From an uncultured Deferribacteraceae bacterium (GTDB taxonomy: Bacteria > Chrysiogenota > Deferribacteres > Deferribacterales > Mucispirillaceae): a DNA stretch of 34,890 bases. Of the stretch, positions 219 to 34,890 are shown piece after piece; positions within the stretch are counted from its first letter, which is position 1, and every line of letters begins with the position of its first letter. The stretch lies in NCBI GenBank assembly GCA_947039395.1, contig CAMQYS010000020.1:1-34890 (forward strand), read 5' to 3'. The translations under genes and the position numbers were made by a program. The notes below the pieces were generated by a model. It worked only from the letters and a program-made list of their open reading frames with translations, made no database searches and was not told where the DNA came from.

Positions 219-2354
219 TTAATGCCCGATACCAGCTAGAGGAAACATCATTTTTATCGGAACAACATGATAATCTTTATCTGTACCAACTTCATCTACA
301 CCTAAAAGCTTTAATGCTTTCTTATTCTCTCCCCATGTATATAAATTTCTATCATTTCCTAAAGCTATAGAACGATTTGCTCCAGCCCATATATCTAGCA
401 CCTTCGCAACATTAGGTATTGCAATCACAGTTGGGATATTATAACCCCCTGTTGATGATGGCACACTTAATAACTGTCCCTTAGAGTTATCACCCCATGC
501 AAACAGTTTCCCTTCTTTATCTATTGCGTATGAGTGAGAATATCCTGTAGCGATATCAACAATAATCTCCTTTCTATAAACTAGATCACCTTGTGTACCT
601 TTTCCTTGAAAAACTTTTATCGGCTGAAATTTATTCTTATCTTTATCAGATATCTCTTTATCATTACCTAACCCTAGCTGTCCTTTATTATTCTGTCCAA
701 GCGTATATAGTGAACCATCTTCTTTAATAATTAAAGTAAAGTTATCCCCAGCTGATGCAAATCTTACTCCTTCAACATAGCCGACATATGCACCACTTTC
801 TCCTCTTGGTGCATACATATACGGACTATAGAAAGAACTAAACCCATCTATTTTATATCCAGCACCGTAATAACTTCCTGTACCGCTTTCTATATCTGTT
901 ATATCGTCTTCACAGTTAGCTGTTTCTGATGCAACCTTATCACACTTACCTATTTGTCCGTGTGAGTTAGATCCGAAACTTGCAAGATTAGATGCCCATG
1001 TATTTCTAAACACTATATGATTTGTTCCCACTGCTAAAAACTGTGTATCTCCTTTCATAATTCCACCTCGTGGACCTTCAGAAGCATATCTAGGAATTTT
1101 AGAGTAATACATTGAACTGTTATCTCTACCCCATTGTGCAAGCACAGTGTTTATTACCGTACCACTATTAGCACCTGCTAGTTTATAGTTATTGTAAGCG
1201 AACGATTGATCGCCACCTGCTCCTATTGCATCAAAATACTCTGTAGTAGGGATATTAATATTACCTGTTGCCTCAATCGTACTTTCCATTTTTGAAACAG
1301 ATGTTGGAGTATTTTTATCAATTAATGTATCATCTCCTAACTGTCCTTTAGAGTTATCACCCCATGAATAAACTTTATAATTATTATCTAAACCACCAAC
1401 ATCTTTTCCATCACCTGCTAAAAGTAATGAATGATTTTTACCTGCTGAAACCTCTTTTATAAACCGAATATTTTTATTTTTTAAAATTGTTGGAGTTGTT
1501 AAATTGTCGTTACTACCCGTTCCTAACTGTCCGTTATTATTCACTCCATAAACATATAAAATATCACTCTTTATATCTGCGATTAATGTATGGTTATCTC
1601 CTATCGCTATTGAAAAGTTATCCTCATCAGATATTAATATAGAACCCTCATAATCGTCAATCTGCCTATCGCCCTCTAAAACATATAGTGATAATATATA
1701 TCTACCTGTTGATTGATCTGTAAAATCTATAGTTGTATCTAACGCACTATCTGTTGCGATAATCCCATCAATCGCATCTATAGAGTTAAATTTAGTAACT
1801 TGCCATTTGAAAGTTTTTGAGTTATCACTAGACACCGCTTTAAAATTCATAACATCATTTTTAGGTGTATCATGAGTTATTGAAGTTATTAATTTTGCTG
1901 ATATAATACTCTCATAAATAGTGATTTTCTTCACTCCTTTATACTCTTTATCTGTTGTATCATCTATCCATTTAGATAGAATTTTGTAATCGCCTGCACT
2001 CTCAAAAGATATTTGAATTTCATTTATATTATCAATACCATCTTTAAAAATTACACCTGTTGCTTCTGTGTTATCTAAGTTTAAAACTTTCCATTCAATC
2101 TCTTTACCTTGTAGATTATCTACAAGAAACATGTTATCATCTGTTCCTGTTGCTTTAAATATAAATGGAGTATTAATAATTAATCTCACATTACCACGAG
2201 TTATATTTAGAGATGTTAATACTTTTTCTCCTCCAACATCAACTTCCTCATCAGCTTTTTTTTCATCAAGAGATGAGCACGATATTAATATAAATGATGC
2301 CACTAATAAAAAAATAATTAATATAATAGAAAAATAAGACCTTGTTTTAATCAT
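219..2354 (-). CDS. lipoprotein with PKD/Ig-like segments and RCC1 beta-propeller repeats
   Basis: Predicted outer-membrane or surface lipoprotein of 711 residues. The N-terminus is a lipoprotein signal with lipobox LIS-Cys26, followed by serine rather than aspartate, which favours the outer membrane. Two Ig/PKD-like segments of about 90 residues follow (roughly 45-145 and 150-245). The rest carries RCC1-type repeats (VYSWGDNSKGQLG, LYTLGQNNKGQLGLG, LFAWGDNSKGQL and others), a family known to fold as a seven-bladed propeller. The repeats are unevenly spaced, with long inserts between blades. The ATG is preceded by AGGA at a suitable distance. The gene stands alone between terminators, behind a cobalamin riboswitch whose aptamer ends about 286 nt upstream of the start codon, which suggests B12-repressed expression. 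The ligand is unknown; B12 capture is a hypothesis from context only. Confidence 0.88.
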   Translation of the reverse strand: MIKTRSYFSIILIIFLLVASFILISCSSLDEKKADEEVDVGGEKVLTSLNITRGNVRLIINTPFIFKATGTDDNMFLVDNLQGKEIEWKVLNLDNTEATGVIFKDGIDNINEIQISFESAGDYKILSKWIDDTTDKEYKGVKKITIYESIISAKLITSITHDTPKNDVMNFKAVSSDNSKTFKWQVTKFNSIDAIDGIIATDSALDTTIDFTDQSTGRYILSLYVLEGDRQIDDYEGSILISDEDNFSIAIGDNHTLIADIKSDILYVYGVNNNGQLGTGSNDNLTTPTILKNKNIRFIKEVSAGKNHSLLLAGDGKDVGGLDNNYKVYSWGDNSKGQLGDDTLIDKNTPTSVSKMESTIEATGNINIPTTEYFDAIGAGGDQSFAYNNYKLAGANSGTVINTVLAQWGRDNSSMYYSKIPRYASEGPRGGIMKGDTQFLAVGTNHIVFRNTWASNLASFGSNSHGQIGKCDKVASETANCEDDITDIESGTGSYYGAGYKIDGFSSFYSPYMYAPRGESGAYVGYVEGVRFASAGDNFTLIIKEDGSLYTLGQNNKGQLGLGNDKEISDKDKNKFQPIKVFQGKGTQGDLVYRKEIIVDIATGYSHSYAIDKEGKLFAWGDNSKGQLLSVPSSTGGYNIPTVIAIPNVAKVLDIWAGANRSIALGNDRNLYTWGENKKALKLLGVDEVGTDKDYHVVPIKMMFPLAGIGH

Positions 2355-2640
2355 ATAAAAATCCTAATAAAATATAATATAGTGATTTGATAAATTAGAT
2401 AAAAAATCACAACGGTACGACTTAATTAAACACATTAATATAGATATTTCTTGAATAACTATATCGCAGTATCGCAATTAAAATATTAAGTTAGATTATT
2501 AATAAATATTAAATATTATTGAACTGTATTGCAAATTGATGCAAGAAACTATTCGTAATATTAAATATACGATAATTATAATTGATAATTAAAATTAATA
2601 ATCTTAATGAATTTAGATTGATCTAAAAGATGGATAATTT
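2355..2640 (-). other. AT-rich leader between cobalamin aptamer and RCC1-repeat lipoprotein
   Basis: About 286 nt of very AT-rich leader, presumably the expression platform of the riboswitch. A 7-bp inverted repeat (TTTAGAT/ATCTAAA) with a two-base gap lies just after the aptamer on the minus strand, but no clear T-tract follows. A degenerate direct repeat (TTGCGATA, CTGCGATA) is near 2463-2478. I see no convincing additional gene. Confidence 0.5.
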
Positions 2641-2838
2641 AATCATTAGGTCTTCCCTCCGAAGGATATAAGAATGAAGTTGAGTTCCTGACTAGTTACA
2701 TATCAAACTCTAATTTAGTTTGAATGCAATTTACAGTTGCGGGGGCAGTGTCGGACTTTCACCGAACTTCCTTTAACTTCTGATATAACTATACTATACT
2801 GATATCTTGAATGCAATAAGATATTACCTAAGACTCAA
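2641..2838 (-). ncRNA. cobalamin (B12) riboswitch
   Basis: The minus strand carries the hallmark core of the cobalamin aptamer: GGTGAAAGTCCG, then CACTGCCCCCGCAACTGTAA, then a local hairpin (CAAACT...AGTTTG), then the B12-box-like AGTCAGGAACTC. GTCTT near 2833-2829 can pair with AAGAC at 2654-2650 to close the element. These motifs are diagnostic of the AdoCbl/MeCbl riboswitch family, which usually represses B12 uptake or synthesis genes when cobalamin is abundant. The element sits between the terminator of the upstream gene and the RCC1-repeat lipoprotein, which is its only evident target. Exact edges are approximate. Confidence 0.92.
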
Positions 2839-2846
2839 AATAGTTA

Positions 2847-2874
2847 AATATAATTTAAAAAATAAAGTAATCAA
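2847..2874 (-). promoter_or_regulatory. sigma-70-type promoter for the riboswitch transcript
   Basis: On the minus strand TTGATT (2874-2869) is followed after 16 bases by TATATT (2852-2847). This places transcription start close to 2840, directly at the 5' edge of the cobalamin aptamer. The site lies just past the terminator of the preceding gene. In such AT-rich DNA, hexamer matches alone are weak; the position is the main support. Confidence 0.5.
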
Positions 2875-2962
2875 AACGATTAAATATTTAATAAAATTAT
2901 ATACGAATACTTTTATGCATAATATATAAACGATTAAATCTTTTATAAATATACACGCAAAA

Positions 2963-2993
2963 AAGAACCCCATGTGTTAAACATAGGGTTCTT
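2963..2993 (-). terminator. rho-independent terminator of the anchor/Kelch lipoprotein gene
   Basis: AAGAACCC (2963-2970) pairs with GGGTTCTT (2986-2993), with four further pairs inside after one mismatch and a five-base loop. On the minus strand it is followed by TTTT. It lies about 50 bases after the stop codon at 3045 and isolates that gene from the riboswitch transcript. Confidence 0.85.
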
Positions 2994-3044
2994 ATATTCT
3001 ATCCGATCTAGTTTACACTAGATTGAATTATTCAATTAATACAA

Positions 3045-6000
3045 TTACTTAGTTGCTCCATCCTCTAACGCTTTGTTAAAGAAAACACCTAATATATTCC
3101 AGTTATGGAACCATAAGTCACCAGATAATGTTTCTGATAAATTAAAGTTTAAGTAATCCGTTTTTAATTGTGTATAGACACTAAACGCATCACAAATAGT
3201 ATTTGTAGGCTCTTGAGAGCCATCAGTACCAATTGATACTGTACTACAAGTAGTATTCTCATCATCATTATTAAACAGTTTTGCTGGATCTAGGGTATAA
3301 AGTAAACCTTTCTCACCATTGTGTGTTCCACCATGTGGATCGTCTGTTCCATCACGTCCAGACGTAAGGAATAGTTTATTATCATAATAGTTAAATACAT
3401 GAACACCACGATCAGCAGGTCTATTCTCAATATGACGAAGATCAGACTCAACGTTTGTCGCTGATTCATTTGTTGATGGAGTCTCAGTACCTGCAACTAA
3501 GCGTGGTGTATTTTTCTGAAGTTCAGTCCATGTATATGTTTCATCTCTAATAACTTTCTTACCTTCCTCATCATAACGTGGTAACTCAAATGCCCATAAA
3601 TCATTTAATCCATAGAAGAATTTTCCATGTACTGGAGCCGCCGAATTCTCCATACCAGCACCACCATGCACTATCAAGTAAGGTATAGTAAGGTTCTTAG
3701 TACCAGACTTTCTTACAATTTCAGATACTATCAGAGCAGGACCATTTCTTTCTCTAGGTTTAGTTCCTTTTGCCGTAAGAGTCCTATATGTATTCTTATC
3801 AATATCATATTCAGTTACTTCAGAACGGTTTTTCTCACTATTTCCACCAAAGAAATATATTTTCCCTTTATACGCTGACATACTTATATAAGTATGTTGA
3901 TTACTATCTGGAGCAGGTCCTAAGTTAGTCCATGTACCATCAACACCAATGTTAGGATCATAAACATATAAATCATATCTGTAAGACGGACCATGACCAT
4001 TAAATCCAAGAGGATATAAATAAAGCTTACCATCGTATGCAATCAGTTTAGATTGCATAGCAAGATCATATTGACCCGCACCACTATTGCCTATGACCTT
4101 ATTGAATGGATTTTCACCAGCTGGGTTTAATATAACCCATTTATTACGTGAAGCATCATATTTACGTAATTTGTTATCTCCTTTAAATAGAGAGCCCTCG
4201 TTGCTCCTATGACTAGATCCTAAATAAGAGTAGACATCGTTTCCAATAACAACAAAATTACGTTCTAAAGTTGTAGTTGATACATTATTATCCTTTTCAA
4301 AGCCAGTCGTAGGTTTAGTCTCAAGTGCTTGATTAAAATCTTGCTCAGGATACATATACATAGTTGAGTTATCTTGAGTTGAACCTATAACATGTAATCT
4401 ATCAATAATCGAACCATTGGCATGCTTAACATTCAGATAAGCTCTATAATGATTTTCATGCTCCTTACCTACTTCTGTAGTAACGGGCCTTGTAGGTTTA
4501 AACTCTAATCTCATAAGACAAGATGCACCCGGATCTAATGATATTCCATTACATTCAGAAGATATTATCTTAATCGTTTGATTTGTATCTGTCACCATGT
4601 TTGTAAAATTATCTCTGTTAAAGTATTTGTTTATTAAAGCTACTCTATTACCTTTTGGCTGATCTTTTACAGCAACAAAACCTTCTGTTTTCCATTCTGA
4701 CTTAAATTCTTCCGCTACTACACTCTTGATAACTAAAGGGGTTATTCCATCATTAGTTAACGAAGCTACTAACGTTTTCGTCTCATTTGGTGCAACAACA
4801 CCGAATGATAGGTATTCGTTAAATAGTGTACCACGTCCAACAACTTGAATAATTTCATTATTTCTTAACCCAGTAGCTGTTCTATTATCAAAAATTGATA
4901 TATAGCCAGTTTTTTCAAGAGAGTTACGAGGTCTAAACACATAACCTAACGTACATGTATTACTCGTCCCTGTTCCAAGTGTACTTACACAAGCTTGATC
5001 GATATCATTATTCAATGTAAATGTAGCTAAATCTGTTGATGTAGTACCTAAACCAGAAATACCAACATCACCATTATTTGTTAATGTGATAAGAAACGTT
5101 GGAGATACTAACCCGATACCAGTAGTAGGATATGCAAATGATTTTGCGTTAATCTCTAAATCCTCTACAGGTGTTACTTTAGATATATCAACTAATGCTT
5201 CCACAGTGGTACCTGTTAAAGGTATAGTCATTCCTGTTGTTCCATTAGTAGGATCAACAAATCTAAGTACCACTCCAGTAGGTGTGTCACCAGCCGTTGC
5301 AGAACCTCTAAAATTAACATCTATGTAACAAATTGGATTATCAGTAGATAATGCCTCTGCATCAGCACATGTAGTAGTGTAGTTAAATTGTTGTCTTACG
5401 TTATCAGTACCACCCGATAATTCTATAGAAAATGGAAGGCCAGTACCAGTACTAGTACCGAACTCAACTTTTATACGTTTTGTAGCAGATAATATATTTT
5501 TTTCTGCTTGTAATACTACCTCATTAACTGATACGTTAGTACCAGCATCTGTGAAAATTTCTCTATCAGTAGTTCCTGATGCATTTCCCTTAACACTTAG
5601 GTATATACGCTCATTACCAGCTACAGCCATAAGGTAACCTACATGAGCCCCAGCGTCAGATGGAGAGAAGTTAACATTAAATTCACATAAATCAACTCCA
5701 TTTTCAGTATTATCAAGAACAAGATCACACGCTCCTCTATTTATTTGAATTGCTGGATTTGTTGACTCTAAACGATAGAACATTTCTGTTATATCTGGAC
5801 TAACATCTGTTCTTTTTAATTTCAACTTAGTAGTAGTAGTAGATAACCTACCTGCTTCTGTATCTGCAAGTTGTATAAATGAAGATATATCAGTATCATC
5901 ACTCTCTGTAAATACCATTAAATCAGAACCTTCTGGTATATGAGACTCTTTCTTCATCATGATAGTGCTTAGTGCTTTCTCATCACCTTTTGATATCTTA

Positions 6001-6812
6001 ACTGGTAAGTGTGAATAGATATATCCAACTGGCTCTATCTCATTTGAAGGAACTGCTGGTTTATAAAACAACTGTATTGAACAGCTATCTCCATATCTTA
6101 ACAATCCACAAGCTGATTCAATGCTTACTTCTCTATCAGATCCTGATATTATTGAACCACTTGCTTCATTACTAGATGCAACTACTGCCTCTGTTGCGTT
6201 TACAATTACTTCACTATCACCAAAATAGAAGTATTGAACAACTTCTGGTGATGATGTGTTTCCTAATGAAACATTATCAAATTTTATATCTTGATAGTCT
6301 GCAGAAACACTAAGCCCTTCTATCCCAGTATCCTCAAGCTGACCTGTAAAAGTTCTTGCTGAAAGAGCTAGTTGAACTGGAATAGCCGTTTCACTACCAA
6401 AAGTAAATTCAACAGAATACTCATCTCTATAAGTTTTTAACTGCTCTTTAGGTGATAATGTTACTGTAACCTCACAACTATCATTTGCTGCAAGGGTCTC
6501 AAGACATGAAGATCCTGTTATAAAAACATCATCATTACCGCCAACAAGCCCTGCCTTAACAAATTTTACTGGATTACCTGTAATATTTGTTAAGCTATAC
6601 CTTATTGGACCTTTCTCAACACCAACAAAGTTAAACTGCCCAAAACTAAGGTTATTAGTTTCTGCAACAACCTCACCAGGAAGCGTTTGCCCTTCAACTG
6701 GTACAAATCGCATACCAGAATCTTTTGCTGTTACGCCTGTTTTTTCACCACAGGCAATTAATACTATTGGCAATGCCATCATTACCAACATTTTTGAAAT
6801 TCTTGAAATCAT
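3045..6812 (-). CDS. large lipoprotein: choice-of-anchor modules plus C-terminal Kelch-like propeller
   Basis: Predicted outer-membrane lipoprotein of 1255 residues with lipobox LIA-Cys21. From about residue 40 to 830 it consists of repeated beta-sandwich modules of the choice-of-anchor/ASPM-SPD-2-Hydin type: each shows an F/V-G-x-V...N...G start, a conserved Cys pair in a CE/CxL context (for example ETLAANDSCEVTVTLSP and DPGASCLMRLEFKP) and a closing PxxP/G-Y strand. The C-terminal 400 residues contain Kelch-like blades (KIYFFGGNSEKNRSEVTEYD, KLRKYDASRNKWVIL, KLFLTSGRDGTDDPHGG), indicating a galactose-oxidase-like propeller. The ATG is preceded by AAAGGAG. A sigma-54-type promoter lies upstream at 7045-7059 and a strong terminator downstream, so it is probably monocistronic and co-regulated with flagella. 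The ligand is unknown; a surface adhesion or anchoring role is inference. Confidence 0.88.
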   Translation of the reverse strand: MISRISKMLVMMALPIVLIACGEKTGVTAKDSGMRFVPVEGQTLPGEVVAETNNLSFGQFNFVGVEKGPIRYSLTNITGNPVKFVKAGLVGGNDDVFITGSSCLETLAANDSCEVTVTLSPKEQLKTYRDEYSVEFTFGSETAIPVQLALSARTFTGQLEDTGIEGLSVSADYQDIKFDNVSLGNTSSPEVVQYFYFGDSEVIVNATEAVVASSNEASGSIISGSDREVSIESACGLLRYGDSCSIQLFYKPAVPSNEIEPVGYIYSHLPVKISKGDEKALSTIMMKKESHIPEGSDLMVFTESDDTDISSFIQLADTEAGRLSTTTTKLKLKRTDVSPDITEMFYRLESTNPAIQINRGACDLVLDNTENGVDLCEFNVNFSPSDAGAHVGYLMAVAGNERIYLSVKGNASGTTDREIFTDAGTNVSVNEVVLQAEKNILSATKRIKVEFGTSTGTGLPFSIELSGGTDNVRQQFNYTTTCADAEALSTDNPICYIDVNFRGSATAGDTPTGVVLRFVDPTNGTTGMTIPLTGTTVEALVDISKVTPVEDLEINAKSFAYPTTGIGLVSPTFLITLTNNGDVGISGLGTTSTDLATFTLNNDIDQACVSTLGTGTSNTCTLGYVFRPRNSLEKTGYISIFDNRTATGLRNNEIIQVVGRGTLFNEYLSFGVVAPNETKTLVASLTNDGITPLVIKSVVAEEFKSEWKTEGFVAVKDQPKGNRVALINKYFNRDNFTNMVTDTNQTIKIISSECNGISLDPGASCLMRLEFKPTRPVTTEVGKEHENHYRAYLNVKHANGSIIDRLHVIGSTQDNSTMYMYPEQDFNQALETKPTTGFEKDNNVSTTTLERNFVVIGNDVYSYLGSSHRSNEGSLFKGDNKLRKYDASRNKWVILNPAGENPFNKVIGNSGAGQYDLAMQSKLIAYDGKLYLYPLGFNGHGPSYRYDLYVYDPNIGVDGTWTNLGPAPDSNQHTYISMSAYKGKIYFFGGNSEKNRSEVTEYDIDKNTYRTLTAKGTKPRERNGPALIVSEIVRKSGTKNLTIPYLIVHGGAGMENSAAPVHGKFFYGLNDLWAFELPRYDEEGKKVIRDETYTWTELQKNTPRLVAGTETPSTNESATNVESDLRHIENRPADRGVHVFNYYDNKLFLTSGRDGTDDPHGGTHNGEKGLLYTLDPAKLFNNDDENTTCSTVSIGTDGSQEPTNTICDAFSVYTQLKTDYLNFNLSETLSGDLWFHNWNILGVFFNKALEDGATK

Positions 6813-8607: not shown

Positions 8608-8700
8608 ATTTATCTCCTTTTTCTATAATTATCTTATTTAGGACACTATAGATCATATTTTAGTTCAATAGTAAAAAGTTTAATTATATTAATTATAAAA

Positions 8701-8829
8701 TAAAGTTAAGATTGATAGATCAGTTTTGCGAACATAAATAAATTATTTGAATAATAAAGTTAAGATTGATAGAGCAGTTTTGCGAACATAAATAAATTGT
8801 TTGAATAATAAAGTTCGTTAAAAACTGCT
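8701..8829. repeat. 54-bp tandem duplication with a hairpin-forming end
   Basis: Two copies (8701-8754 and 8755-8808) differ at about two positions, and a third begins with TAAAGTT at 8809. The second copy contains AGCAGTTTT...CGAAC (8773-8787), which can pair with GTTCG...AAAACTGCT (8813-8829), giving a stem of 9 plus 5 bp. The first copy carries almost the same arm, so two alternative foldings compete. The block lies between the end of fliP and the start of the DUF305 gene. Confidence 0.9.
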
Positions 8830-22166: not shown

Positions 22167-22508
22167 ATCGTTCCTATTATTAATAAATTAGAATTACAAG
22201 GTTGAAAAGTGATTGTATGAATACCAAAAACAATGTTTAAATTATAAACCAAACTACTCATCAAAATAACTACTATAACTAGCTATGAAAATTAGTTAAT
22301 AATTTAATTGTATAGATACCTTATAAAACCGTCAACTAAAACCAACGGTAAAAGTTAATCTAACAAACTACCCCAATTGACTAATTAATTAACTATCTAA
22401 CAAACTACCCCAATTGACTGATTAAATTAACTATCTAACAAACCACCCCAATTGACTAATTAATTAACTATCTAACAAACTACCCCAATTGACTGGAAAT
22501 GAAACAAT
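22167..22508. other. intergenic region between fliG and fliH
   Basis: 342 bases. The half next to fliG is the 37-bp tandem array listed separately. The half next to fliH is AT-rich; I see no terminator and no convincing promoter. It splits an otherwise contiguous fliF-fliG-fliH-fliI block. Confidence 0.55.
22361..22495. repeat. 37-38-bp tandem repeat, about 3.6 copies
   Basis: Copies begin with TAACAAAC at 22361, 22398, 22436 and 22473; the last is cut off after 23 bases. Each contains the palindrome CAATTG next to CCCC, and an ATTAATTAA stretch; one copy has a one-base insertion. The array begins 13 bases beyond the fliG stop codon and lies within the fliG-fliH gap. Confidence 0.93.
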
Positions 22509-28752: not shown

Positions 28753-31626
28753 TTAGTCGGTATTCGTTATTTCTTTATTACCTTCTTTATTATTTACTAA
28801 TGTTGGATAATTTCCATCTTCTAAAATCTCCCACTTACCGCCCTCTTCATTCACTAGCCAACCAATAAAATTAGTTGATATCTTAAACTCATTTACATCA
28901 AGTTCATAGCCTCCAAGTTGACTAGTACCATTAGTTGGAGTTGTAGGTGCATACCAGTAGTTATTTATATATCTAGTTGTTGTTCCAAACTCATTACCAA
29001 TAATTGCTCCAGTATTTTTATCTGCTTCAATATCTCCATAACTAAATGAATGTGAAATTTCTAACTTATTGTTATTGATACCTTTAAAATAATTATCTCC
29101 AATAATTCCACCTGCTATACCCTTACTTTCAATATCTCCTACATTATAACTATCTGTTATCTTAACTAAAGCATTACGATTTGCAGTACCTTTATTGATA
29201 ATTGATCCGATAACACCACCTACATAATTATTTCTACTAGGAGTTACACTATCACTACTACTACTACTTATATCTCCTGTATTATAACTTTCACTTATAT
29301 TAAGACTAGAACCAAACCCAATAATACCACCCACTGTAACCATTGAAGCAGAAGTAATCGTTTCTATATCACCTATATTATAAGAATTATTTATATTAAC
29401 ATCTCTCTGACTCATTCCAATTATTCCACCGATGAAGACTTCAAAAATATCATTACTAACAGCACTATTTATCGTTAGTGATCCTTTGTTATGCGAATTA
29501 GTTATAAATGTCTCATCTGCTTTATTGTATCCAATAAAACCTCCTGTACAAGAATAGATAGCGTTACTATTAATTATTTCTCCAGCATTATAAGTGTCTA
29601 AAATAGTTACTGTTGAATCAGTATTATTCTCTCCTATAATCCCACCTGTATACTTATTGCCTGTTATAACTCCACTGTTGAAACTATTTCTTATCTCGGT
29701 TGTACCAAAAACGATATTTTGTCCAATAATACCACCTGTATGTTGAGAGTTACCAAATATTTCTCCGTTGTTATATGTATCTACTATCTCTAACAATTCA
29801 ACATTATCATTCTTTCCTATAATACCTCCTATTGAACCAGAATTAATAGTATTGTTACTTTCTATAACACCTGTATTAAATGTACCTCTTATAATAATAG
29901 AGCCACTAATATTTAACCCAATAACTCCACCGATAATATTACTACCTACTATATTTGCCTCATTTTTCGTATCTTCTATTATTAAAGTATCTATACCATT
30001 ACTATTGAAATAATTTTGTCCGATAATTCCACCTACAATACTATTATTACTAGATATCTTTCCTCTATTTGTTAAATTGTCTCCATTAATACTAAAACCA
30101 GTTGATTTTGCGATCCTACTACTACCAATAATACCGCCTATAGTATTGGTACCAACAGTAGTTGATTCTATAACATTACTCTTATCTAAGTTTTTCATCG
30201 TAATATTAGAATTATTTATTATTCCGATAAACCCACCGATAGTAATATTAACATTAGGGATAGAATTAGATCTTATTTTACCTGAATATCTTGAGTTTCT
30301 TATAAAAACTGTACGATTATGAATTATTGCTACAAAACCACCCATTATCATATCATCTTTAACACCTACAACTAAATTATTAGTGGTCAACTCTATATTA
30401 CTTGTTGAATTATCTATCGTAAATACATACTGAATAGTATCTATCGTATCAACTGTTCCAACTGTTCCAACAAAACTAGCTACATATTTATTTCCACTGA
30501 TTTTACCACCATCAAGTGTTAAATTTTTTATAGTTGTATCGCCTGTAACATTTTGAATTAATGCAGTAGCTATATCTGAAGTTATATCCTCATCTGTATT
30601 TATATTTAAGTTTTTTATGCTCTTATGATTTCCATCAAAAATACCAGTAAACTCTTTTATACCTTTAAAAGATTTATGATTCATATCAATATCAGATAAA
30701 AATAGAACATTCTTATCAACCATTGTCTGATCAGATAACCAAGCTAAGTTGGCAGGTGTTTTTATAAGATAGCTACCAAAAATATCCTTATCTGGTAAAG
30801 TTCTATCTTTTCCATTCCATGAAGTTGTCTCTTCTTTAAACGATATAGAAAAAGAGTATGTATCAGCTATCTTATTACTACTAGCTATATCTATTATCTC
30901 TATATCAAACTTAACAACTAACTTTTTATTAGCTTCTAAATCACCGCTTAACTCTGCACTTCCTAAAGTATATGTGATACCACTCTTTCTATCAAGCTCT
31001 ACACTTATCGCATTTACTAACTGATCAATAATAGTGTCGCTATCTTTACCAACCGAACTTATATTCTCAACACTGTAATTTAAATAACTGTTATCACTTA
31101 TGAAACTTTTACTATCAATACTATCAATAGTAAGCCTATCGCCTAGATAAAAATTAAGCTCAATATCTGTAGGAGGCACTTCATCTCCATTAAACTTTAT
31201 CACAAAATAATAGACACCTTCTACTCTACGACTACTAATCGTTTCTTTAATCTCTATATCAAATTTAATAACTAATTCTTCTTCATAGTCTACATCACCA
31301 CTAGAAATTACAGCATCTCCTAAATTATAAGTGGTATTAGTAGCTACATTCTTTATAGCTAACTCTGTTTCTATTGCATCATTTAACTCATCAACTATAG
31401 TTCCAATCTCTTTCCTTTCAGAATTTATCCCATTTATTTCTATACCATTAACATCATAGATTAAAGACTTATCCATACTTTCAAAATATTTACCATCAAC
31501 ACTATCAATAGTAAAATCACTACCTAAATAAAAGAAAGTTGCAGTAGATTTATCGATATTGTCAGAACATCCTTGACATATGACAATTATTAATAGCATC
31601 ACCCATAAAGGTAATACCTTTTTCAT
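28753..31626 (-). CDS. GLUG-repeat surface lipoprotein
   Basis: Predicted lipoprotein of 957 residues with a signal ending QG-Cys20-Ser, suggesting the outer membrane. Two homologous modules of about 120 residues follow (about 33-155 and 157-270); each begins FYLG(S/D)xxTIDS(V/I)D and contains YxLGxAxxS and a KFDIEI strand. A linker (AWLSDQTMVDKNVLFLSDIDM, in parts) leads to about twelve GLUG-type repeats (for example YNNGEIFGNSQHTGGIIGQN, FNSGVITGNKYTGGIIGEN, YNVGDIESKGIAGGIIGDN), a beta-solenoid motif also found in IgA1-protease-like and adhesin proteins. The last 50 residues have a GLUG-associated NYWYAPTT...W element. The ATG has GGAGGAT upstream. Adhesion or glycan contact is a guess. 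No promoter is obvious. Confidence 0.88.
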   Translation of the reverse strand: MKKVLPLWVMLLIIVICQGCSDNIDKSTATFFYLGSDFTIDSVDGKYFESMDKSLIYDVNGIEINGINSERKEIGTIVDELNDAIETELAIKNVATNTTYNLGDAVISSGDVDYEEELVIKFDIEIKETISSRRVEGVYYFVIKFNGDEVPPTDIELNFYLGDRLTIDSIDSKSFISDNSYLNYSVENISSVGKDSDTIIDQLVNAISVELDRKSGITYTLGSAELSGDLEANKKLVVKFDIEIIDIASSNKIADTYSFSISFKEETTSWNGKDRTLPDKDIFGSYLIKTPANLAWLSDQTMVDKNVLFLSDIDMNHKSFKGIKEFTGIFDGNHKSIKNLNINTDEDITSDIATALIQNVTGDTTIKNLTLDGGKISGNKYVASFVGTVGTVDTIDTIQYVFTIDNSTSNIELTTNNLVVGVKDDMIMGGFVAIIHNRTVFIRNSRYSGKIRSNSIPNVNITIGGFIGIINNSNITMKNLDKSNVIESTTVGTNTIGGIIGSSRIAKSTGFSINGDNLTNRGKISSNNSIVGGIIGQNYFNSNGIDTLIIEDTKNEANIVGSNIIGGVIGLNISGSIIIRGTFNTGVIESNNTINSGSIGGIIGKNDNVELLEIVDTYNNGEIFGNSQHTGGIIGQNIVFGTTEIRNSFNSGVITGNKYTGGIIGENNTDSTVTILDTYNAGEIINSNAIYSCTGGFIGYNKADETFITNSHNKGSLTINSAVSNDIFEVFIGGIIGMSQRDVNINNSYNIGDIETITSASMVTVGGIIGFGSSLNISESYNTGDISSSSSDSVTPSRNNYVGGVIGSIINKGTANRNALVKITDSYNVGDIESKGIAGGIIGDNYFKGINNNKLEISHSFSYGDIEADKNTGAIIGNEFGTTTRYINNYWYAPTTPTNGTSQLGGYELDVNEFKISTNFIGWLVNEEGGKWEILEDGNYPTLVNNKEGNKEITNTD

Positions 31627-34185: not shown

Positions 34186-34842
34186 ATGGCTGATCATATA
34201 GTAAAAAAATATTCCTCTAAAGAAGAAACAGCTAATATTGTTACTCATGCAATAGGCATCTTATTTGCAATTACAGGGCTTGTTATGCTCGTTGTAATAT
34301 CTGCAATACATGGCGATGCATGGAAAGTCACTTCATCTGCTATCTATGGTGCATCTATGATAGCGTTATACACAGCATCAACTTTATATCATACTTTCAA
34401 AAATGAAAAAACTAAAAAAACTTTCAATGTTATAGATCATATATCAATCTACTATCTTATCGCTGGATCATACACTCCTTTTATGCTTGTCACACTAAGA
34501 GGTGGATGGGGTTGGAGTCTTTTTGGAGTTGTTTGGGCACTTGCAATAACTGGTACTATATTGAAATTGAAATTCGGAGATAGATTAAGAAAATTTTCAA
34601 ATATGATCTATATATTTATGGGTTGGCTAATTATTATTGCAATCAAACCAGTTGTGGACTCTCTAGATTCTAAAGGATTACTACTGCTATTTATTGGTGG
34701 AGTACTTTATACATCTGGAGTTATATTCTATAAATGGAAAACTCTACCTTATAATCACGCAATATGGCACCTATTTGTTCTAGCTGGAACAGTAACACAG
34801 TACTTTGCAATTCTGTATTATGTAGTATTAAGTGATAAGTGA
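34186..34842 (+). CDS. hemolysin III / PAQR-family membrane protein (TrhA/YqfA-like)
   Basis: A 218-residue protein with seven membrane segments and the conserved residues of the hemolysin III family, the bacterial arm of the PAQR superfamily: His21 in VTHAIG, Ser65 and His69 in ASTLYH, Asp84-His85 in IDHISIYYLIAGSYTP, and His191 and His195 in HAIWHLFVLAG. These His/Asp/Ser residues form a zinc site in PAQR proteins. Bacterial members have been linked to membrane-energetics homeostasis (TrhA); the name hemolysin is historical. Length is normal. GGAGGA lies 11 bases ahead of the ATG. The last three codons (Ser-Asp-Lys) and the stop are the first unit of a 7-bp tandem repeat. Confidence 0.93.
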   Translation: MADHIVKKYSSKEETANIVTHAIGILFAITGLVMLVVISAIHGDAWKVTSSAIYGASMIALYTASTLYHTFKNEKTKKTFNVIDHISIYYLIAGSYTPFMLVTLRGGWGWSLFGVVWALAITGTILKLKFGDRLRKFSNMIYIFMGWLIIIAIKPVVDSLDSKGLLLLFIGGVLYTSGVIFYKWKTLPYNHAIWHLFVLAGTVTQYFAILYYVVLSDK

Positions 34843-34890
34843 TAAGTGATAAGTGATAAGTGATAAGTGATAAGTGATAAGTGATAAGTG
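34831..34890 (+). repeat. 7-bp tandem repeat (AGTGATA), at least 8.5 copies
   Basis: Perfect AGTGATA units run from 34831 to the edge of the window, and the array may extend beyond. The first unit is coding: it supplies the end of the hemolysin III-family gene and its TGA. Because the unit contains TGA and TAA, all three frames close within about two units, so copy-number change would hardly alter the protein. Confidence 0.96.

Follow-up and report, generated by a model that had tools for sequence, protein, structure and literature searches.

BtuG, a lipoprotein with a seven-bladed propeller, binds vitamin B12, forms a complex with BtuB and is controlled by a riboswitch (PMC6143338, PMC10404256); it was found only in Bacteroidetes (Wexler et al., PMC6143338). 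The proteins BtuH (DUF4465), BtuJ and BtuK bind B12 as well (PMC8941943, PMC12751083, PMC13398666). Here, we describe a cobalamin riboswitch in front of a gene for an RCC1-repeat lipoprotein in a bacterium of the family Mucispirillaceae (phylum Deferribacterota). This protein resembles BtuG (BtuG2 of B. thetaiotaomicron, PDB 3DSM) in being a lipoprotein with a predicted seven-bladed beta-propeller, in its control by a B12 riboswitch and in its linkage to btuB, to which the gene is adjacent in Mucispirillum. It differs from BtuG in that it belongs to the RCC1-repeat family, has an extra N-terminal beta-sandwich region, occurs in Deferribacterota and is encoded by a monocistronic unit in its own genus. 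With BtuH, BtuJ and BtuK it has in common that these are riboswitch-linked lipoproteins accessory to BtuB, but their folds are other than that of the protein described here. The propellers of RCC1, UVR8 and RPGR share the fold and the sequence repeats, but these are eukaryotic nuclear or signalling proteins, whereas the present protein is a bacterial lipoprotein under B12 control. A preliminary description of the locus had regarded RCC1-repeat proteins as lying outside the usual riboswitch targets; in the open-access literature that we searched, no paper connected RCC1 proteins with cobalamin riboswitches, two Leptospira transcriptome papers mentioned RCC1, cobalamin and riboswitch without connecting them, and nothing relevant was found on RCC1 in combination with TonB-dependent receptors and lipoproteins.

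The window (the whole stretch of DNA analysed, 34,890 nucleotides) corresponds to a single contig (C20); the genome is 2.1 Mb in size and has a G+C content of 32%. Of its named relatives, uncultured Deferribacteraceae bins are the closest, with Mucispirillum as the sister genus. The whole genome contains only two cobalamin riboswitches. One of them lies in the window at positions 2661-2813 on the minus strand, where the Rfam covariance model RF00174 matched over its full length (1-189) with 45.6 bits (E = 1.7e-8), compared to a gathering score of 31.5 bits; the leaders of relatives scored 44.7-93.9 bits. The cobalamin aptamer proposed in the preliminary description was thus confirmed. The gene of the RCC1-repeat lipoprotein (219-2354, minus strand; 711 amino acids) follows behind a leader of approximately 300 nt. 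The terminator scan identified two intrinsic terminators on the minus strand, one belonging to the upstream Kelch-repeat lipoprotein gene (2963-2993; 13-bp stem, loop of 5, TTTT) and one behind the RCC1 lipoprotein gene (130-154; 11-bp stem, loop of 3, CTTTTT), so that the unit reads terminator, aptamer, leader, lipoprotein gene, terminator and is monocistronic. Since there are strong terminators on both sides, the riboswitch has a single gene to control, which agrees with the earlier claim that the lipoprotein gene is the only one downstream. Read-through from the Kelch gene was rejected because the terminator at 2993-2963 intervenes. A known or annotated B12 gene concealed in the leader would have spoken against the proposed pairing; the leader was examined for such a gene, none was there and this possibility was rejected. 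No further gene of note was found within the leader except for an upstream open reading frame (uORF) of 7 codons at 2623-2646, which had been missed before.

The contig stops 218 bases past the lipoprotein gene, and the region beyond the second terminator is outside the view of this assembly. A tandem repeat of 47 bp (2.9 copies, 1-134) at this contig end overlaps the terminator behind the RCC1 gene, and the assembly likely broke there. At the opposite contig end, the 7-bp repeat TAAGTGA is present in 8.9 perfect copies (34829-34890), and two intergenic tandem repeats were found in the flagellar cluster, with units of 37 bp (3.7 copies, 22358-22494) and 54 bp (2.2 copies, 8699-8815). The Kelch-repeat lipoprotein directly upstream of the riboswitch unit (3045-6812, minus strand) has 1255 amino acids, and its gene is retained, at least partly, beside the RCC1 gene in two other genomes of the genus (G001 and G002), so that the RCC1 gene has a conserved neighbour coding for another predicted propeller lipoprotein.

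Sequence reading of the leader revealed an expression-platform hairpin, CUUC-GGAGG-GAAG, with the Shine-Dalgarno sequence in its loop (2652-2664, minus strand). Four genomes of the genus share this motif without change, as do GLUG and some nrd leaders, and the RCC1 leaders of Mucispirillum carry the variant CUUC-GGGAG-GAAG. The fold of the hairpin is inferred from sequence alone, without covariation. The start codon of the uORF (2623-2646, minus strand; MIKLSIF and a stop codon) is located 9 nt past the GGAGG, and its translation is likewise inferred. In all 24 leaders of this platform type (13 RCC1, three GLUG-lipoprotein and eight nrdB leaders; loci L053-L064, L066-L068, L085-L087, L089, L092, L094, L098 and L100), the Shine-Dalgarno sequence behind the aptamer serves a uORF of 6-19 codons that starts 6-11 nt after the GGAGG, with the start of the main gene 99-344 nt farther downstream. 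In these leaders, a stretch of this kind would contain a start codon by chance with a probability of about 0.16; one nrd leader has GUG instead of AUG. As the leaders are related, the 24 cases are not independent of one another. Within the window's genus, the btuB leaders show equal spacing, and it places the start codon of btuB itself after the Shine-Dalgarno sequence. Codon-position counts showed no excess of synonymous changes in the uORF peptides and no sign of selection at the peptide level, and it appears that only the start, length and stop of the uORF are conserved, not the peptide. As the peptides look unselected, we infer that the act of translating the uORF matters, similar to ppe2 of M. 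tuberculosis, where a B12 riboswitch leader contains a translated short uORF required for expression of the downstream gene (PMC11260477). The B12 riboswitches of ppe2 and metE in this organism (PMC11260477) share the short uORF in the leader with the locus described here but differ in aptamer subtype and lineage, and here the uORF follows a Shine-Dalgarno hairpin platform common to RCC1, GLUG and nrd targets.

In the window, the lipoprotein gene starts 292 nt beyond the start of the uORF and 268 nt behind its stop codon. Because of the latter gap, direct re-initiation seems unlikely, and we infer that premature termination or decay of the untranslated leader is the likelier route. An AU-rich hairpin (GUGAUUU...AAAUCAC; 2382-2410, minus strand) is located shortly before the lipoprotein start; its pairs are kept in relatives through one-sided changes, and the evidence for it is weak. 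In the nrd leaders, a terminator-like hairpin between the uORF and nrdB was recognised by eye. Alternatively, the riboswitch may not govern the lipoprotein at all, with the uORF or the leader RNA being the true target and the lipoprotein promoter lying inside the leader of ~290 nt. In support of this explanation, the Shine-Dalgarno sequence serves the uORF and not the distant lipoprotein start, and promoter-like matches exist in the leader, yet fewer than in shuffled sequences. On the other hand, there is no alternative gene before the terminator, the stop codon of the uORF lies only 39-57 nt before the lipoprotein start at eight of the nine Mucispirillum loci, and the identical type of gene is found behind the leader at every one of the 13 loci described below. 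We thus consider an independent promoter very unlikely and regard the lipoprotein gene as the target of the riboswitch.

A further, weaker cobalamin riboswitch (23.9-34.8 bits) was detected before a GLUG-repeat lipoprotein gene near ffh in three relatives of the genus (L066:4792-5015, with the gene at 2839-4470 on the minus strand; L067:215-378, plus strand; L068:5315-5465, minus strand), and these leaders share the layout of Shine-Dalgarno hairpin and uORF. In the genome of the window, stop codons interrupt the GLUG gene (G000:C14:39098-40334), where no match to the riboswitch is left. The window itself encodes a 957-aa relative of the GLUG lipoprotein (28753-31626, minus strand; matches at G000:C20:30457-30828 and 29356-29661), before which no riboswitch was found by the Rfam search. 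Such GLUG lipoproteins, the function of which is unknown, form a large family in the genus.

The RCC1 lipoprotein was analysed using Pfam, repeat alignment, AlphaFold and Foldseek. Direct reading of the sequence showed a lipobox (ILIS-C, Cys26) behind a signal peptide, which is kept in the window's genus; the Mucispirillum orthologues have L-[SAF]-[SGT]-C or similar. An N-terminal, Ig-like beta-sandwich region (residues ~45-243) is followed by the RCC1-type propeller (residues 244-711), in which the alignment revealed seven RCC1 repeats; the Pfam family RCC1 (PF00415) matched with an E-value of 1.6e-41 and 141 bits versus a curated cut-off of 21.7. AlphaFold predicted a seven-bladed propeller for this domain with a pTM of 0.79 and low confidence for blades 4-5, and the model of the full-length lipoprotein was weaker (pTM of 0.67), both predictions being of moderate confidence overall. 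The best Foldseek matches were all RCC1-like propellers, with target-normalised TM-scores of up to 0.79 to UVR8 and RCC1-like domains. The RCC1 repeats and the seven-bladed propeller put forward in the preliminary description thus held, the repeats as a feature of the sequence and the blades as a model prediction that agrees with their number. The propeller is net acidic (52 D+E versus 44 K+R).

With regard to its relationship to BtuG, the profile of the lipoprotein retrieved only RCC1-type matches among the PDB chains and no BtuG structure. DUF5074, which we take to be the Pfam family of BtuG, was absent from the 14 genomes of relatives searched, and so was DUF4465 (BtuH; 0/14), so that we rejected the idea that these genomes encode BtuG or BtuH themselves. 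The protein is thus probably BtuG-like in function but is not BtuG, as by sequence it is a member of the RCC1 family.

Orthologues were surveyed in the 60 nearest genomes; one search pass used stricter filters and weak matches may have been missed. Among these genomes, clear full-length relatives of the lipoprotein were limited to the window's genus (G001-G003, 65-81% identity, G001 being truncated by a contig end) and Mucispirillum (G006-G013, 31-33% identity in the alignment). With the window included and both copies of G006 counted, this amounts to 13 loci in two genera, and at all of them the gene has its own cobalamin riboswitch immediately upstream; the aptamer is kept alongside the gene in all three of the other genomes of the window's genus. 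Conservation of the riboswitch without this gene in relatives, which would have refuted the proposed pairing, did not come true. No riboswitch was found near the RCC1 paralogues in the same Mucispirillum genomes, the closest one on any of their contigs being ~24 kb away and belonging to the nrd genes. The idea that the RCC1 aptamer was copied from the neighbouring btuB riboswitch was rejected, as the RCC1 aptamers are no nearer to the btuB aptamers (mean identity 0.41-0.46) than to the nrd aptamers (0.49-0.51); the deep branches of the tree are weakly supported.

The search of the relatives for btuB and btuF homologues revealed a linkage that is invisible in the window alone. At eight Mucispirillum loci (L056-L058 and L060-L064), the lipoprotein gene and a second riboswitch are divergently oriented; the contig reaches btuB at seven of these, stopping just past the second riboswitch at L057, and the full run btuB-tonB-btuF-btuD-btuC is visible behind the second riboswitch at six. 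At the ninth locus, L059, riboswitch, RCC1 lipoprotein, btuB (54 nt on) and tonB form a single operon on one strand. Thus, btuB adjoins the lipoprotein gene at 8/9 Mucispirillum loci, the remaining one (L057) being cut by the contig end. The uptake operon codes for a TonB-dependent receptor, TonB, a BtuF-type binding protein, an ABC ATPase and a FecCD-type permease. For the receptor of L060, the top matches among solved structures were all BtuB (phmmer E = 7.7e-30). The best NCBIfam models of receptor and binding protein were TonB-B12 (TIGR01779, E = 3e-56) and BtuF (E = 6e-24), respectively, both below their curated cut-offs, for the receptor in both genera; such scores are expected in a distant phylum. 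In the window's own genus, the lipoprotein gene is not beside btuB, the next genes in G002 and G003 being hemL and atp genes. The genome of the window also carries this uptake operon, behind its other riboswitch (L065); hence, it encodes the components for importing B12 across the outer membrane under the same type of control, but not adjacent to the lipoprotein gene.

This linkage also bears on the possibility that the lipoprotein is regulated by B12 but serves a different purpose at the cell surface, e.g. as an adhesin or exopolymer binder, and was recruited from the family's lipoproteins by capture of a riboswitch leader. Such a scenario is supported by the richness of the genus in RCC1- and GLUG-repeat lipoproteins, one GLUG lipoprotein having gained a riboswitch as well. 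The conservation of the pairing over two genera at only ~32% protein identity, the adjacency to btuB and the shared transcript with btuB at L059 argue against it, and we consider it very unlikely compared to a role in B12 uptake.

CbiD was not found in the window's genus, whereas proteins with B12-binding domains were, including one of 1105 amino acids, which is the length of MetH. Since the uptake operon and MetH are present and CbiD is missing, the bacterium likely imports B12, although the absence of CbiD alone is no proof for a lack of synthesis. The complete Mucispirillum genome (M. schaedleri, G005) contains CbiD and a riboswitch on its cbi operon but no RCC1 orthologue. This genome also has an nrd-type cobalamin riboswitch without nrd genes behind it (L084:7474-7646); a different gene is next, at ~560 nt, and the riboswitch is possibly an orphan left by gene loss. 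The lipoprotein is likewise absent from genus g2 (G004), which has a riboswitch-btuB operon, and is therefore not obligatory for uptake by BtuB. From its absence in G004 and G005, we infer that it is an accessory to uptake, as BtuG generally is for BtuB-type systems.

RCC1 propellers commonly act as protein-protein interaction platforms, and the lipoprotein may be a part of the B12 uptake machine that stabilises or gates BtuB without binding the vitamin, serving as its lid, scaffold or surface anchor in the manner of some partner lipoproteins of TonB receptors. The divergent or operonic arrangement with btuB fits this explanation equally well, the Foldseek matches are RCC1-Ran, RPGR and UVR8, and the BtuB operon of G004 exists without the lipoprotein. 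The fact that the riboswitch units are separate in the window's genus and the resemblance of a net acidic propeller lipoprotein to BtuG with its negative binding face speak against it but are only suggestive. In our opinion, this explanation is unlikely and the RCC1 lipoprotein is probably an independently evolved, BtuG-like B12-capture partner of BtuB that performs the same task as BtuG. The earlier proposal of such a capture system is thus supported by the linkage; binding of B12, exposure at the surface, complex formation with BtuB and the OFF direction of the switch remain inferences in the absence of binding or expression data.

According to this preferred reading, the riboswitch would permit expression of the mRNA at low intracellular cobalamin (the OFF-switch direction being inferred), and the cell would then make a seven-bladed RCC1 propeller that is presumably lipid-anchored at the surface of the outer membrane. 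The propeller would take up cobamides at the surface and pass them to BtuB, and import would proceed by BtuB together with TonB, BtuF and BtuCD, which are encoded in the separate riboswitch operon of the window's genome. At abundant cobalamin, the aptamer would bind the ligand and the unit would be switched off, probably by blocking the Shine-Dalgarno sequence of the 7-codon uORF rather than the start of the lipoprotein gene, and the untranslated leader may then be lost through termination or decay. The missing adjacency to btuB in the own genus, the lack of the protein in G004 and G005, the low confidence of blades 4-5 and the unselected uORF peptides weigh against this explanation. A bolder reading holds that the Mucispirillaceae possess a second, non-homologous solution to the task of BtuG, in which captured cobamides feed BtuB, and that the riboswitch gates translation of the uORF rather than that of the gene; taken jointly, we regard these claims as tentative and would, on balance, lean slightly against them.

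Surface capture lipoproteins such as BtuG had been called exclusive to Bacteroidetes. If our interpretation is correct, the existence of such a protein of RCC1 type in Deferribacterota would mean that high-affinity capture of B12 at the surface arose more than once. Propellers of this family, whose known partners are otherwise proteins, would acquire a cobamide-related ligand, and a new gene would be added to the targets of B12 riboswitches. The uORF pattern would provide a compact natural set for the study of riboswitch control via leader translation outside mycobacteria. B12 is contested in the gut, and the system would reveal the way in which the mucus-dwelling commensal Mucispirillum competes for this vitamin.
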